Source: Tyzzerella sp. (GTDB lineage: Bacteria > Bacillota > Clostridia > Lachnospirales > Lachnospiraceae). From it: a DNA stretch of 60,723 nucleotides. Position 1 is the first letter of the stretch. Each line of letters starts with the position of its first letter. The stretch spans positions 1-60,723 of the forward strand of contig JAFTWA010000024.1 in the NCBI GenBank assembly GCA_017465565.1, given 5' to 3'. Below the pieces are notes generated by a model. It saw only the letters and a list, made by a program, of their open reading frames with translations. It searched no databases and had not been told where the DNA came from. The position numbers and the translations under genes are program-made. Positions 1 through 6,229 of the stretch are shown in pieces.

Positions 1-299
1 ATTGGGAATTAATAGAAACATTGTGGAATGTAAAGAAAGGTAAGCCAACGGCTCAGACGATTGCGACAGAGGAATTAATAGAAACATTGTGGAATGTAAA
101 GAGTAATAAGACCCAAAACCTTCGTTGTCGTAATCTGAATTAATAGAAACATTGTGGAATGTAAAGCAAAAGTAGTTGCAAAGTCGTACGACTTGTGTTA
201 CACGAATTAATAGAAACATTGTGGAATGTAAAGCAAGTCCGTACTATAGGAGAAGCTGGTGGTGGCGCGGAATTAATAGAAACATTGTGGAATGTAAAG
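1..299 (+). CRISPR. CRISPR array, trailer-side part (5 repeats, 4 spacers)
   Basis: Five identical 30-bp repeats lie at 6-35, 72-101, 137-166, 204-233 and 270-299, beginning GAATTAATAG and ending TGTGGAATGTAAAG. Spacers are 36, 35, 37 and 36 bp; bases 1-5 are probably the end of another spacer, so the array continues off the left edge. The 3' end of the repeat resembles the Clostridioides difficile type I-B repeat (TGTGGTATGTAAAT). That suggests + strand transcription with an ATGTAAAG-like crRNA handle. Repeat decay at the right end (1476-1549) also fits a leader on the left. No cas gene is in the window, so the subtype is inference. Confidence 0.97.
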
Positions 300-1482
300 T
301 GAGATAACGCATGTACTCGAAGGCACGGAGCATTACCAGGAACTGCAGAACGCAATTTTCGAATATGCCAAAAGCAAGAATGATTACGAAGGGCGTCTTC
401 AGAAACTGACGGAGCTATACAAGGATATAGAAAATGCAAATGTAGAACAGGAGCTTACTGCAGACCTGATTGGTGATTATCTGTTCTCAGATGAAAAGTT
501 TGTGCAACAGTTGTCCTCGCAGAACCGAAATATCTTCCAGAAGATATATGACGAAATCAAGTATCTGGTTAAAACAGTAACTTCAGGAAGCAAGGAAGGG
601 AAGCAACTGGAGAAGGTTAAGAAACTGTTTGATGAGGTGTATAGGGAGACGGGCAAGACTGAAACAAAGGACTATGTTCAGTATTCTATCAATTATACGC
701 AGGATAATAGGGCAGTTGCAGTAATCGAAAACGACATATTTGACGGTAAATTTGCGCAACTTGACAAAAGTGAGAGAATAAAACTGGCAAAGAAAGAAAT
801 TAAGAAATTCAGACCGGGAGTTCCTGTTAGTGGAAGATTGGTGGGGGTTACAAAGAAAACTGCAGACCATTATACAAATTCGGATTATACGGACATTATC
901 AGGAAAAACCAGGAAGAAGTATATGAGGATAAATTGAATGCAGCGCAGAATCTGGATGATGTGATATATGCAAGCACAGATTATGTAAATGAGGAGTTAA
1001 ACCATACTAGAAAAGATGATATTACACAGTTTGCCAGAGGAAACGTTCTACTAGATATTGGCGGAAAGCAATACAATGCAAAAGTTATTGTTGGGTATAA
1101 AGAAAATGGAGAAATGGTTTTCTATGATTTACAAGATTTGGTTCAAGACTCTTTTGAATATAAAAAGAGATACAATCAAAACCAGTCGGTAAAAACCGAA
1201 CCTGGAAAGACGACTGCATCTCCTATTACTAGTATACCACAAAATCAGGAAAATGGAACACGAAACCAAGAAAAATATTCGATATCCGAAAAAAATGACG
1301 ATATCGCTCCAACTGGAAACTGGAATATCAGAGGAGAGGACATAGCCCTAGAAGCGATAGCACCAGTAAGAAAAGATATTGCGCCGGCGAAAGGGAGTGC
1401 TGCAGTTGGTGATATCGCTCCGTGGAATCCTGATGAACCAGAAGAAAACCTAGACATTGGACCATTCTCACAATCGAATTAA
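300..1482 (+). pseudogene. Internal fragment of mobile-element zincin/LPD polyvalent protein gene lying between two CRISPR repeats
   Basis: The frame is open from 301 to a TAA at 1480-1482 that is supplied by the next CRISPR repeat. It begins EITHVLEGTEHY; the T at 300 would complete a CAT His codon, so the break falls inside an HEITH zinc-protease motif. A helical region follows, then an LPD-type domain (about 1083-1180, ending in a GNVLLDIGG...VGYKENGEMVFYDL pattern) and a low-complexity tail with several DIAP repeats. Such architectures belong to very large phage or ICE polyvalent proteins. Both ends are missing. A GTG at 502 has no convincing ribosome binding site, so expression as protein is unlikely. 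The 1,176 bp between repeats (300-1475) occupy the place of a spacer. Confidence 0.85.
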
Positions 1483-1549
1483 TAGAAACATTGTGGAATA
1501 TAAAGGAAGGTCAGGTGTTTTTGTTATACAAAAAATTATGAATTAATAG
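1476..1549 (+). CRISPR. Terminal CRISPR repeat (1 mismatch), spacer and degenerate last repeat
   Basis: 1476-1505 is a full repeat with a single G to A change near its 3' end (AATATAAAG instead of AATGTAAAG). After 34 bp, the first 10 bases of the repeat recur at 1540-1549 and similarity then fades (a shifted TTGTG can still be aligned). Degenerate repeats at the distal end are usual for CRISPR trailers. The 34-bp interval 1506-1539 is the size of a normal spacer. Confidence 0.85.
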
Positions 1550-1734
1550 GTAGTCTTGTGCTAAAAAATGCATTGAAACCTGAAGAAAAAAATGGTTGTT
1601 ATCAAGTAAGAGCATACTGCGATATAAACAACATTCCGTCAAATATGCTTTGGATTAAAAATGGTTTTAAAATATCTCCTGTTAAAATGGAAAACGACAA
1701 TATTCCTGGGGCATATGTTACTTATAAATTATAA
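1504..1734 (+). pseudogene. Open-frame remnant, GNAT-like C-terminus
   Basis: A frame open from just after the repeat's in-frame TAA runs to a TAA at 1732-1734. The translation includes GSLVLKNALKPEEKNG and then NNIPSNMLWIKNGFK, which resembles the C-terminal part of a GNAT acetyltransferase (helix, G, then N-x-x-S-x-x-L-x-x-K-x-GF). There is no start codon with a ribosome binding site, and the frame overlaps the last spacer and degenerate repeat. It may be a gene truncated at the array's trailer end. The family call is tentative. Confidence 0.35.
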
Positions 1735-1862
1735 AATAATTGAAATTGATAATTTCCAATTTATAAGGAAGTAGGGTCAAATTTGGGTTAACTCCAATAA
1801 TAAGATATAACAACTTATAAAACTAGCCTAATAGCCCCTCATTCCTTTAGATAACTAAGAAT

Positions 1863-1892
1863 GAAAGTCGTAGAAATTCGGCTTTCTTTTTG
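1863..1892 (+). terminator. Intrinsic terminator
   Basis: GAAAGTCG and CGGCTTTC form an 8-bp stem (one G-U) around an 8-nt loop, followed by TTTTTG. It separates the array and remnant region from the genes to the right. Confidence 0.6.
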
Positions 1893-1931
1893 TATCAAGG
1901 AGCATAATCGAAAACCAACTCCACCTCATGA

Positions 1932-1960
1932 TTGAGCGAGAATTATATGAATGGTATAAT
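1932..1960 (+). promoter_or_regulatory. Sigma-A-type promoter
   Basis: TTGAGC and TATAAT are separated by 17 bp, about 55 bp upstream of the decayed HTH gene. Not otherwise supported. Confidence 0.5.
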
Positions 1961-2015
1961 GGTAACAATTAGATGATTTTAATAAAATATTAAAAAAGAA
2001 GAATGAAAGGAAAAT

Positions 2016-2268
2016 ATGACACAAAAAGACTATGTAATTAAAGCAATGGAGTAAAACGGTGGTTATGCCACATTTCAACTTTTACGAATTACAAGATTTT
2101 AGAGCAAAGTTTTATATTGTGGCAACTAAAGAGAGAAAGGAACAATTTAGTGACATCATTTCTGCATCTATTTATCGTCCGATAAAAGAATTAGTTGCCT
2201 TTGTGGATTATGATGCACTTATAAAACAATACGAAAAAGAAAGTCAAAATATTGAAAGGGTGATTTGA
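2016..2268 (+). pseudogene. Decayed HTH/restriction-endonuclease-like gene (nonsense plus internal deletion)
   Basis: ATG at 2016, after a GAAAGG ribosome binding site, starts MTQKDYVIKAME, then a TAA interrupts what reads on as NGGYATF. This is the N-terminal winged-helix signature of a family of HTH proteins with a PD-(D/E)XK-like C-terminal region. The reading frame then shifts, and FYELQDFRAKFYIVA to VDYDALIKQYEK (about 2080-2268) matches the expected C-terminus of the same family. The central few hundred residues are gone. The family identification rests on remembered motif similarity and is fairly but not fully secure. Confidence 0.6.
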
Positions 2269-2468
2269 TGCAAATATATAGAATTGCAATTGAAGAAACA
2301 GTAGTTGAAGAATTTGAAGTTATGGCGAATAATGTAAAAGAAGCATTAGAAATTGCAGAAGAAAAATATCAAGACAGTGAATTTGTTTTAACTCCAGGCG
2401 AGGTTCAGCATAAACAAATGTCTGTTATAAAACCAGTTGTGGAAGCTACAAATTGGATCGAGTTTTAA
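2268..2468 (+). CDS. DpnD/PcfM-like small protein
   Basis: A 66-aa protein whose pattern (MQIYRIAIEETVVEEFEV, then an alternating helix with EALEIAEEKY and a late beta strand) matches the DpnD/PcfM family. These small proteins are found beside DpnII-type restriction genes and on conjugative elements; their function is not established. The ATG overlaps the TGA of the upstream pseudogene (TGATG), which indicates translational coupling in the intact ancestor. The GAAAGGG upstream acts as ribosome binding site. It now sits behind a broken partner and may be an orphan. Confidence 0.6.
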   Translation: MQIYRIAIEETVVEEFEVMANNVKEALEIAEEKYQDSEFVLTPGEVQHKQMSVIKPVVEATNWIEF

Positions 2469-2504
2469 TATTGATATTTAAGGAAATAGAAAAGGATTAA
2501 AAAC

Positions 2505-2909
2505 ATGGAACTAAAAAAGAGTTATAAAGGATTTTTATTATGGATGCTAGTATTTGTAGTGACGATGTTAGGGGGTGCATTACTGCCAATTCAAAGTGGT
2601 GCGATTCTCACAAGAATCGTGATGAATGTTTGTGTACTCAATCTCGTATTGCTGGCATTCATTATATACAAAACGGAGTATGTATACTGGTACAACGGCA
2701 CAGAATATAACCAGGTGGTAGAAGCGGGTTCAGAACGCAGAAAGGAGTTTGCAAAGAAACACCTGAAGAGATTTGGGATATTCGCACTGCTTTATTTGGT
2801 GTACTCTGTTGTAGCACAATTGATTCGGATACCTTATGGAGTAGATATTGCAGTTGCTACCGTAGGGATGGTTATTACGGCAATTAGTACAATTAAATTT
2901 AAACTGTAA
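2505..2909 (+). CDS. Small integral membrane protein, unknown function
   Basis: A 134-aa hydrophobic protein with about four membrane segments: roughly residues 9-29, 34-57, 91-111 and 114-131. A charged stretch in the middle (GSERRKEFAKKHLKR) probably faces the cytoplasm. I do not recognise the family. The start follows AAGGAAATAG at modest spacing. It lies 36 bp after the DpnD-like gene and 42 bp before the flavin reductase gene, all on the same strand. Confidence 0.6.
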   Translation: MELKKSYKGFLLWMLVFVVTMLGGALLPIQSGAILTRIVMNVCVLNLVLLAFIIYKTEYVYWYNGTEYNQVVEAGSERRKEFAKKHLKRFGIFALLYLVYSVVAQLIRIPYGVDIAVATVGMVITAISTIKFKL

Positions 2910-2951
2910 AGGAAAAATATTAGAAAATATAAAGTTGACGGAGGAAATATC

Positions 2952-3512
2952 ATGAGAAAAAACTTAGGAGCAAAAGCAATTTTATACCCAATGCCGGTGC
3001 TTATCATCGGTTCGTATGATGAAGAAGGGATACCGAATGCAATGAATGCAGCATGGGGCGGTATCAGTGAAGAAACTGAGATTTCTATTTGCGTGAGTGA
3101 CGACCATAAAACAACTGCAAACATTTTAAATAGAGGAGCATTTACAGTTAGCATTGCCGACAAGGAAAATGTGGTAGCTGCTGACTATGTTGGGATTGTT
3201 TCTGGGGATAAAGTTCCAAATAAAATCGAAAAATGTGGATGGACAGCTGTTTCATCAGAGTTCGTGGATGCACCACTTTTTGAGGAACTACCGATGGCAC
3301 TTGAATGTAAGCTGATTAGTTATGACGAAGCAACTTGCCGTTTGGTTGGCGAAATCGTAAATGTATGTGCGGACGAACGTATTTTAGGCGAAGATGGCAA
3401 GGTATCTCTTGATAAATTTAGCCCAATTACATACGACCCAATTCATTATACTTATTGGACACTTGGAGAAGTAGTAGGAAAAGCATTTTCAGATGGAAAG
3501 AAGTTGAAATAA
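2952..3512 (+). CDS. Flavin reductase family (flavoredoxin-like) protein
   Basis: A 186-aa FMN-binding split-barrel protein. The N-terminal pattern YPMPVLIIGSYDEEGIPNAMNAAWGG followed by ISICVSDDHKTTANI is the typical flavin reductase-like domain in which the backbone and the Ser/Thr-rich loop hold FMN. The C-terminus ends in the usual YWTLGEVVGKAF helix. It probably moves electrons between flavin and an unknown partner in the cytosol. ATG follows GGAGGAAAT. Length is normal for the family. Confidence 0.85.
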   Translation: MRKNLGAKAILYPMPVLIIGSYDEEGIPNAMNAAWGGISEETEISICVSDDHKTTANILNRGAFTVSIADKENVVAADYVGIVSGDKVPNKIEKCGWTAVSSEFVDAPLFEELPMALECKLISYDEATCRLVGEIVNVCADERILGEDGKVSLDKFSPITYDPIHYTYWTLGEVVGKAFSDGKKLK

Positions 3513-3527
3513 AAAAGGAGACAGAGT

Positions 3528-3860
3528 ATGATTTTTATTAGTCTCAACGATTTTTTTGAAAAGATAAGTGACTGCAGAAAACTAAGCAGGCAGGAAGAAG
3601 TGGAATGCGCACGTCAAATGAAAAGCGGAGATGATTCTGCGCGAGAGCGTCTGATTGAAAGCTATCTGCCAATGGTTGCGGCGCATATAAAACGTATTCC
3701 GTCTCATCTGCAAAGTTTTGGTATGGTTATTTATTGTCAGCAGGCTCTTGAGAAGGCCGTTGATAGTTTTAATTTTGAGCAGAATGGCGAAACTTTTGCA
3801 CACCGCCTAGGTTGGTATCTGCGCCAGGCTACAACGCGGTATATTGCAGAGGTCAGATAG
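3528..3860 (+). CDS. Sigma-70 region 1.2/2-like small protein
   Basis: A 110-aa protein with LSRQEEVECARQMKSGDDSARERLIESYLPMVAAHIKR, which matches the region 1.2 to 2.1 helices of sigma-70 factors. The remaining part gives only a partial region 2 and there is no region 3 or 4. It could be a truncated sigma factor, an anti-sigma-like decoy or a domesticated core-binding module. It starts 15 bp after the flavin reductase stop behind AAAAAAGGAG, so the two are probably cotranscribed. It ends 38 bp before the TPR gene. Confidence 0.65.
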   Translation: MIFISLNDFFEKISDCRKLSRQEEVECARQMKSGDDSARERLIESYLPMVAAHIKRIPSHLQSFGMVIYCQQALEKAVDSFNFEQNGETFAHRLGWYLRQATTRYIAEVR

Positions 3861-3898
3861 TGAAAATACATATAAACAATGAAAAAAGGAGCACCCAA

Positions 3899-6229
3899 AT
3901 GGACATTCATTCAATCCTCACCACTTATGACACAATGTTTGGCAAATACCCACTGTCCGACATAGAAGCATATCTATATGAAAACATAGAACAAGCAAAA
4001 GAGCAGTCTGAAACAGGCATTTTATTTACACTTTTAAATGAAATGATTGGTTTCTGCAGAGATACCACGCAAAAAGACAAAGCGCTGAAATATTGCACGG
4101 AATTATTACAGTTGTTAGACGCGATGAAGCTTAATGGAAGCTTTGAATATGCGACTTCCCTCCTAAACATTGCGAACGCATATCGTGCATTTGGTCTGCT
4201 AGTAGAATCTTTGGAGCTGTTTGGGCGCGTCGAGCAGATTTATAAGCAGAAATTAGATGCGAAAGATTTTGGATATGCGAATCTTTATAACAACTGGGGA
4301 CTGGCGTATCAAGAAATCGAAGATTATGAAAAAGCGAAAGAGGTACTCTTAAGAGCATTGGCTGTTGTGGATTCTTATGAAGAAGCCGTGATTCCACAGG
4401 CGACAACACGAACCAATCTGGCTGCCACCTTATTGCAATTGGGTAAGGAAGAAGACTATAAGGAAGCGATTGTGTATTTGCAACATGCCCTACGCATACA
4501 TGAGGAAAATGGAGGACAAGATTTCCATTATGGTGCAACTTTAGTGGCAATGGGAGACGCGTACTGTTTTCAAAAGGATTTTTCTAAGGCAGCAAAAGCT
4601 TATGAAGCAGGATTACGGGAAATCGAAAAACACACCGGTAAGAATGATAATTATGCAAGAGTGATGGAAAAATATAATTATGCAAAGAGCCAGTGTTCTG
4701 GAGTTAATAAGTGGCGTTCGAATTTGGAACGCAGTAGAGAATTTTATGAAACCGTGGGAAAAGAAATGATTCATACACATTTTCCTGAATGGGAAAATCG
4801 AATCGCAGTTGGATTAGTTGGGGAAGGTTCAGACTGTTACGGATTTGATGACGAGATTTCCATGGACCATGATTATGCAGTGGGATTTTGTATGTGGCTT
4901 ACAGATGTAGATTATGAAAAAATTGGACCTGCATTGCAAGAAGAATATGAGAAACTCACGGAAAATGAGAATCGTTTAAAATATCGCCGCGGCGTATTTA
5001 GGATTAATGACTTTTATAATACACTTTTGGAAAGTTCTGAGGATTTTGAAAAAGAGATTTTGCTGGATTATCAAAAAGTAGAAGAATTCCAATTAGCGGC
5101 AGCTACCAATGGAAGCGTATTTCGAGATGATATGGGCATTTTTTCTGAGATTAGAAAGAAGCTGCTAGCCTATTATCCAGAAAGTGTTTGGAGAGGAAAA
5201 CTCGCACAAAGTATTCATGAATTTTCGCAGTATGCGCAGAGTAATTATGCAAGAATGATGGCAAGGGGAGATGAGCTTACTGCAAAAATCTGCGTGGGCA
5301 AGGCAATTGAAAGCACAATGGATTTGATTTATTTGCTGGGTAGAATCTATGCGCCTTACTATAAGTGGAAGAAGAAGGGATTGGAAGAATTTCCATTGTC
5401 AAAAAAGATTCTTCCATTATTAGAAAAGCTTGCCAATCTCCCGACTCAGAGCGATGCGTGGGAAAATGTAACTTATCGTGCTTCTTTCATTAATAAAGCT
5501 GATAAATGTGAGGAGTTATTTGAGCAAATTGCAAAGGAACTTTTGGAAGAATTAAAGCGGCAGGGATTAGTGTCGGGCGAGGATGTATTTTTGGAAAGCT
5601 ATATCAAACAGATTTTGGAAGGGAAAAATATGGACATCATTGAAAAAATCGTAGCATTAGAATGGAAACAATTTGACCGGGTGAAAAACGAAGGCGGCAG
5701 AGCAGATTGTCAGGATGATTTCCAGACATTTTCGATTATGAGAAAAAGCCAGTATCTTACATGGACAGAAGATTTGCTCCATAGCTTTTATCAGGATTTG
5801 GTCGATGCAGAACAAAAAGGCTGGAATCTGATTATGGAAAAATATGCGAGAATGATGAAGAGCACAAATCCAGAAAAATATTTGCTGCTTGAAAAGGATT
5901 TGCCTGTGATTTCAGAGGAGCGAAACGCAATTCAGGAAGAAATTATCAAGATTCAAGTAGCCTGGATGGAAGAATTTGCGGAAAAGTATCCGAAAATGGC
6001 GGGTAGTGCAAGAAGCATCAAGACAGTTACGGATACCGCATTTAACACTTCTTATGAAACCTATCTGAGAGGGGAAATGAGTACCTATTCAGAAAGCACG
6101 TTTATTTTGTACAGTGGATTTATCGTTTCGCTGTTAAAGCAAAATAGAAATTTGGCCATGGAAATCATGGAAAATACGGCAAAATTATACGGATATGATT
6201 CGTTGGAGAATGCCGAAAGGAGAATATAA
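3899..6229 (+). CDS. TPR - DUF4037 - DUF4125 multidomain protein
   Basis: The start ATG at 3899 follows AAAAAAGGAG; the open frame extends upstream to 3812, but that part overlaps the sigma-like gene. The 776-aa protein has about 250 residues of TPR-like helical repeats (patterns such as YANLYNNWGLAYQEIEDYEKAKEVLLRAL). A DUF4037 nucleotidyltransferase-like domain follows; GEGSDCYGFDDEISMDHDY supplies the GS and DxD-type residues expected of a pol-beta fold. A C-terminal DUF4125 domain contains NEGGRADCQDDFQTF and ends in MENTAKLYGY. The biochemical substrate is unknown. The MGMT-type gene starts on the very next base after the stop, so the two are co-translated. Confidence 0.85.
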   Translation: MDIHSILTTYDTMFGKYPLSDIEAYLYENIEQAKEQSETGILFTLLNEMIGFCRDTTQKDKALKYCTELLQLLDAMKLNGSFEYATSLLNIANAYRAFGLLVESLELFGRVEQIYKQKLDAKDFGYANLYNNWGLAYQEIEDYEKAKEVLLRALAVVDSYEEAVIPQATTRTNLAATLLQLGKEEDYKEAIVYLQHALRIHEENGGQDFHYGATLVAMGDAYCFQKDFSKAAKAYEAGLREIEKHTGKNDNYARVMEKYNYAKSQCSGVNKWRSNLERSREFYETVGKEMIHTHFPEWENRIAVGLVGEGSDCYGFDDEISMDHDYAVGFCMWLTDVDYEKIGPALQEEYEKLTENENRLKYRRGVFRINDFYNTLLESSEDFEKEILLDYQKVEEFQLAAATNGSVFRDDMGIFSEIRKKLLAYYPESVWRGKLAQSIHEFSQYAQSNYARMMARGDELTAKICVGKAIESTMDLIYLLGRIYAPYYKWKKKGLEEFPLSKKILPLLEKLANLPTQSDAWENVTYRASFINKADKCEELFEQIAKELLEELKRQGLVSGEDVFLESYIKQILEGKNMDIIEKIVALEWKQFDRVKNEGGRADCQDDFQTFSIMRKSQYLTWTEDLLHSFYQDLVDAEQKGWNLIMEKYARMMKSTNPEKYLLLEKDLPVISEERNAIQEEIIKIQVAWMEEFAEKYPKMAGSARSIKTVTDTAFNTSYETYLRGEMSTYSESTFILYSGFIVSLLKQNRNLAMEIMENTAKLYGYDSLENAERRI

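Follow-up and report, generated by a model that had tools for sequence, protein, structure and literature searches.

A kilobase segment of a phage gene in a spacer slot of a type I-B CRISPR array of Tyzzerella sp., and its possible origin by recombination with two spacers

Varble is said to have described, in 2021, the integration of prophages into the CRISPR loci of Streptococcus pyogenes. That case has phage DNA within an array in common with the locus analysed here, where an internal gene segment alone is found and no prophage. Spacers are also documented to recombine with the phage sequences that they target (Varble 2019, in staphylococci, and Watson 2018, both through citation in PMC8616872 and PMC10434264). 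As in the present locus, homology of spacer size joins an array and a phage in those studies. Their outcome, as cited there, is the transfer of CRISPR-cas regions by transducing phage particles, whereas here a clean block of phage DNA, a kilobase long, remains between the repeats of a type I-B array. No case in which a gene segment of kilobase size takes the place of a spacer was found among the titles and the beginnings of abstracts listed in our literature search, a weak absence given that subscription literature is poorly covered there. Recombination of spacer and target is known; a natural kilobase scar in an array would be a new form of it.

The DNA analysed here, referred to as the window, is a stretch of 60,723 nucleotides (contig C40) from a Tyzzerella sp. 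genome. It carries 1,176 bp of a phage gene in place of a spacer, and the recombination of two former spacers with the invading phage gene is considered the best explanation of this insert, with a probability of about 0.5.

Layout and orientation of the array

The window starts inside a type I-B CRISPR array. Repeat comparison located five exact copies of the 30-nt repeat, GAATTAATAGAAACATTGTGGAATGTAAAG, on the plus strand at positions 6 to 35, 72 to 101, 137 to 166, 204 to 233 and 270 to 299, the last of which forms the left border of the insert. The four spacers between them are 36, 35, 37 and 36 nt long. The fifth slot, at positions 300 to 1475, holds 1,176 nt and departs from the canonical spacer length of approximately 35 nt, and the remaining spacers of the array are 34 to 39 nt long on contig C40 and on contig C21 of the same genome. 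The right border is formed by a repeat at 1476 to 1505 (plus strand) whose single mismatch is an A for G at position 25 of the repeat. The initial annotation had placed a 1,176-bp fragment exactly between two repeats, and this was confirmed, since one repeat ends at 299 and the next begins at 1476. Long spacers with a decayed repeat, as treated in the CRISPRDetect paper (PMC4869251), look alike, but no decayed repeat was found hidden in 300 to 1475, where the best repeat-like 30-mers have 13 mismatches in 30 positions.

The insert does not occupy the final slot. It is followed by a last spacer of 34 nt (1506 to 1539, plus strand) and by a degenerate terminal repeat (1540 to 1570, plus strand), which starts 34 nt past position 1505 and whose first 10 of 10 bases, GAATTAATAG, are perfect. 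This 10-mer has seven copies on the plus strand of the 60.7-kb window, all seven in the array, and none on the minus strand. The alignment score of the degenerate repeat was 8.5, compared to a mean of -1.65 (standard deviation 2.98, maximum 9.0) in 2,000 shuffles, and the position of the 10-mer is the stronger point for calling it a repeat. A consensus scan placed a terminator-like hairpin 3′ of the array at 1863 to 1886 on the plus strand; the same scan found no terminator-like site on the plus strand within the insert. An Rfam search of window positions 1 to 6000 gave no match at E 0.1.

Two further features were observed past the array. An open frame at 1550 to 1734 weakly resembles what would remain of the C-terminus of a GNAT acetyltransferase; PDB chains of acetyltransferases were matched at E 0.6 to 0.8, and the frame had no Pfam match. 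The stretch at 1798 to 1895, which includes the terminator-like hairpin, has copies of approximately 80% identity in the same genome (contigs C30 and C15) and in genome G003 (81%); the matches in G004 and G007 are shorter.

Contig C21 ends in five further exact copies of the repeat, with spacers of 39, 34, 34 and 35 nt and one unfinished, and its repeat is identical to that of the window. Upstream of these copies, on the same strand, lie cas6, cas8b, cas7, cas5, cas3, cas4, cas1 and cas2. Type I-B models were the best PADLOC hits for 8 of 8 cas genes, and 7 of 8 were named by NCBIfam, Cas8b being left without a name. The cas operon together with the repeats of C21 indicates that the array reads on the plus strand, with C21 as the leader side and the window as the trailer side. 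The insert is therefore located near the trailer of the array. The array is split between the end of C21 and the start of the window, with the spacers between them lost in the assembly gap. Between cas5 and cas3 on C21 there is a lone repeat-like sequence (L016:8200-8229), identical to the repeat at 23 of 30 positions, which could be a degenerate repeat, a regulatory mini-guide or a chance match.

Identity and probable source of the insert

The insert is a single open frame on the plus strand, with codons from 301 to 1473 and 391 codons without a stop. Its first base is the third of the His codon in a HEITH motif, and its last lies inside a codon. A Pfam LPD3 domain was found in the encoded protein (E 1.9e-7, 31.7 bits compared to a cut-off of 27). 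From its residue 1 the protein aligns to giant phage polyvalent proteins that extend past both of its ends. These relatives read VVGH directly before EITHVLEG, so that the protein runs on across the left cut point, and the five relatives with a complete frame (2,095 to 2,550 amino acids) have HEITH, HETSH or HETTH at that point, an HExxH motif which we take to mark a working zincin. The initial annotation had recognised a large polyvalent protein with a zincin HEITH end and an LPD domain, and this holds: an LPD domain, giant relatives and a zincin-type HExxH at the cut were all found.

The search with the insert protein recovered three distant loci in IMG/VR and two in genome_contigs, with best-segment identities of 41 to 63% in these five and weaker relatives down to 28%. 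Homology runs from residue 1 to residues 356 and 362 of 393 in two relatives (L013 and L019, respectively). In a third (L021), residues 333 to 388 are matched in a piece farther downstream, behind an extra stretch, and the final approximately 30 residues of the insert have a counterpart in one relative only, in this displaced piece. Around the giant gene of L013, four of six neighbouring ORFs match PHROGs families (unknown function, virion structural protein, tail protein and endolysin), and the ORFs ahead of the giant gene of L019 are near-equal in size and stand in the same order as in L013. The neighbours in L013 suggest that the source was probably a phage rather than an ICE. Of the mobile elements proposed initially, the phage is thus supported, and the neighbouring genes point away from an ICE.

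The insert occurs once in its own genome (88.6% complete), indicating that it was not copied from a resident gene in the assembled part. No match to the source gene was obtained in phages and plasmids by DNA, or in phages or plasmids by protein. Among other genomes, 1 of 9 in the genus and 4 of 396 in the family encoded relatives of the insert protein, two of the four being weak. The intact gene, which the initial annotation had proposed to seek in phage and ICE genomes, was represented by distant relatives, none close enough to give the PAM at the left border. Nor was a sister strain found in which the array might show the two spacers in ordinary form, since the repeat, with up to 3 mismatches allowed, was present in 0 of 9 further genomes of the genus.

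Long gaps in related arrays

Thirty other array loci with 1,118 gaps between repeats were surveyed, several of these loci being pieces of arrays. Regions were taken from 10 of 94 genomes with any match (nine arrays), followed by 15 regions (six arrays); the second batch comprised 15 loci of 13 genomes, with repeats accepted at up to 9 mismatches. The gap counts exclude L064 and L102 to L110, which have one repeat-like site each, and some other genomes with multiple matches, such as G191 and G353, lie outside the survey. In the first 15 arrays or pieces, 518 of 520 gaps were 33 to 40 nt long, and both exceptions (85 and 576 nt) belonged to a single locus, L060. The next 15 loci had 598 gaps, six of them outside 32 to 42 nt: 4,012 nt (L113), 3,067 nt (L123), 523 nt (L121), and 24, 54 and 70 nt. 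Gaps of more than 100 nt were therefore present four times in the 30 loci (L060, L113, L121 and L123). With the window included, five of 31 loci have such a gap, and in two of them, the window and L060, it is phage-like with no recognised transposase.

The gaps of L113 and L123 contain ORFs which we take, by recognition, to be transposases. Like the window, these loci have long foreign DNA between repeats; theirs carries transposase-like ORFs, whereas no transposase family was matched by the main frame of the insert in the window. Both are related I-B arrays, and the nearest full repeats flanking their insertions are exact on both sides. The gap of L121 lies behind a degenerate array end and contains a transposase-like remnant.

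The 576-bp insert of L060 (L060:1006-1581, minus strand; G163:C16) is derived from a phage and lies in a related I-B array before a degenerate terminal repeat. A phage head-morphogenesis gene (phrog_4728) ends in it, followed by a small ORF, and a gene for a Prp-type peptidase begins there (phrog_4478; PF04327 at 24.6 bits, under the cut-off of 27). Three relatives (L065, L127 and L128) share the order of the head gene's end and the small ORF, and from a short stretch of L127, by reading, the Prp gene appears to come next in relatives too. The right border of this insert is exact, with TCG 36 nt upstream (YCN would occur there by chance in 108 of 527 cases), which shows that phage DNA is able to abut a trailer-side repeat directly. 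The left side differs. Bases 1 to 39 were identical to the three relatives at 6, 5 and 7 of 39 positions, compared to 83, 65 and 61 of 111 for bases 40 to 150. Homology to the phage thus starts at approximately base 40, or at approximately base 31 if a one-codon gap is allowed, and a spacer-like stretch of approximately 36 nt separates the last exact repeat from the phage DNA, with no repeat between. L060 had been considered as a second clean two-spacer case and was rejected, as comparison with three of three relatives shows that its first approximately 36 nt do not come from the phage gene. No source phage near enough to give the left PAM of L060 was found. The 85-nt gap of the same locus (reverse-complement 3322-3406) contains the repeat minus its first 14 nt and is a partial repeat deletion beginning at the spacer border.

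Origin of the insert and its consequences

The favoured explanation supposes an ancestral I-B array that held two spacers acquired approximately 1.1 kb apart on one strand of a single phage gene, with the spacer of the upstream target (spacer A) nearer the leader than the other (spacer B). During a later infection the phage gene would have recombined with the array through both spacer homologies of approximately 35 bp. The stretch of the gene bounded by spacers A and B, both included, would have replaced the intervening repeat and any repeats and spacers between, giving a product of repeat, gene segment and repeat with exact borders. Such an exchange predicts exact borders together with a PAM to the left of both end pieces. 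Exact borders at both repeats and continuous target DNA between them, the expected signature of the product, were found. Double exchange has short homologies to work with at two times approximately 35 bp, and this counts against the two-spacer explanation, as does the insert of L060, which does not fit it. The trailer end of arrays is described as old and stable in PMC8047081, so a rare event would be retained there.

The repeat end of the array presumably resembles that of C. difficile, and this likeness, with the I-B cas genes, suggests that the array's system uses a C. difficile-like PAM. The I-B PAM of C. difficile is YCN, including CCW; CCA is functional, and it was the commonest motif for spacers from an endogenous plasmid, as given in PMC8406132. 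Searches with the array's own spacers yielded no convincing protospacer, so the PAM would rest on C. difficile. Six of the ten spacers were searched as 20-mers in viral_contigs, with 0 matches, and stretches of the array gave two matches at E = 1 in one search of phages and none in the other. A match of 17 of 18 nt between the spacer at 102 to 136 and a structural gene of L019 was discarded, as it falls to 21 of 35 at full length, which is chance level: the best place for this spacer anywhere scored 22 of 35, and 200 shuffles reached 20 to 24. The best scores of the ten spacers were likewise 20 to 24, the shuffle control being for the spacer at 102 to 136 alone.

At the right border, CCA is found at 1438 to 1440 (plus strand) and leaves 35 nt up to the repeat, a normal spacer length in this array. 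It is the candidate PAM of spacer B, which by the position of the CCA would have occupied 1441 to 1475 (plus strand). Random end points within the insert had CCA or CCT at 34 to 37 nt in 78 of 1,127 cases (0.069), CCA or CCT at 34 to 39 nt in 116 of 1,127 (0.103) and YCN at 34 to 37 nt in 231 of 1,127 (0.205), figures which are post hoc, since the CCA was spotted by eye ahead of the computation and the length ranges were chosen by the analyst. The initial annotation had proposed a check for a CCW motif beside end pieces of approximately 36 nt. The CCA bears this out at 35 nt; at 36 nt (1440 to 1475) the preceding triplet is ACC, which is no PAM. At the left border the source gene should read NCA before base 300 (the His codon), with N set by the preceding Gly codon. 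This triplet is YCA in four of eight relatives and another in four of eight, and within the insert a pyrimidine is the third base in 6 of 22 Gly codons. The left side thus appears compatible with a PAM for spacer A, which would have occupied 300 to 335 (plus strand) if a length of 36 nt is assumed, its PAM being NCA in the lost gene context. Overall, the proposal that two spacers recombined with the invading element, which was one of two offered initially, gains moderate support from the CCA at 35 nt and stands with its left PAM unread.

The other initial proposal, over which the exchange between two spacers is favoured, has Cas1-Cas2(-Cas4) take up a single 1,176-bp prespacer early in the life of the array, with normal integration and duplication of the repeat. 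We consider it unlikely, if the least unlikely of the alternatives. Normal integration yields exact repeat borders, the NCA on the left is compatible with a PAM, and the inserts of the window and of L060 are both among the oldest, trailer-side units of their arrays. In contrast, spacer length is tightly ruled, as the 518 of 520 gaps at 33 to 40 nt in the 15 related arrays show, and capture predicts a PAM on the left and none on the right, which would make the CCA at 35 nt a matter of chance (0.069 to 0.103).

Slightly less probable again is an entry in which the phage DNA paired with a single right-hand spacer and was joined at its left end without homology, taken jointly with its variants, illegitimate capture or the integration of a prophage in the array with later deletion. 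The L060 insert looks like such a product, having an exact right border, TCG (a YCN motif) 36 nt upstream of that border, and a left end where homology to phage DNA sets in approximately 36 to 40 nt past the repeat with no repeat between, and the L060 array speaks for joining on one side. The left border of the window insert lies exactly at the end of a repeat, which is unexpected for illegitimate joining.

An assembly artefact, in which phage DNA was misjoined to the array through the 30-nt repeat, is improbable. In its favour, the assembly is in 62 contigs at 88.6% completeness, and one of its breaks, between C21 and C40, falls in this very array. Against this, a misjoin would need real DNA in which the gene segment touches a repeat on either side, the right-hand repeat is marked by a mismatch of its own and by unique flanks, and the protein of the relatives simply runs on at the left cut point. 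A remnant of an insertion sequence or other transposon can be set aside almost entirely: related arrays do carry transposase-bearing blocks (4,012 nt in L113 and 3,067 nt in L123), but a search for transposase families, confined to the insert's main frame (P0001), gave no match, and the segment comes from the interior of a phage gene, both of whose ends are missing.

As the array is read on the plus strand, a transcript of the insert would be sense to the phage gene. An RNA of approximately 1.2 kb, either sense or antisense, had been predicted initially; the sense form agrees with this orientation and the antisense form does not. The pre-crRNA would hold 1,176 nt between two Cas6 sites. If the exchange between two spacers took place, spacer A would keep an intact 5′ repeat handle, and immunity through A may survive 3′ trimming. 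Spacer B would be left without a repeat handle of its own, so that only one of the two presumed memories would remain. This loss would be the cost of the event, with a long piece of phage DNA fixed in the array instead.

The locus would then be natural evidence that homologies of spacer length let phage DNA recombine into a bacterial immune locus. It also provides a signature that can be searched for in all genomes, consisting of a repeat, a PAM-compatible start and a PAM approximately 35 nt ahead of the right repeat. The default upper gap limit on array extension is 125 nt in CRISPRDetect (PMC4869251), which suggests that such arrays are usually cut off. Array finders with a gap limit may truncate them, and probably split and overlook them. 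That type I arrays repeatedly gain kilobase phage segments through their own spacers, and that these persist at the trailer and are transcribed as giant pre-crRNAs, is a doubtful extension of these findings. If such repeated uptake were true, CRISPR loci would be targets of recombination and long-range archives of phage DNA, beyond tags of 35 nt.
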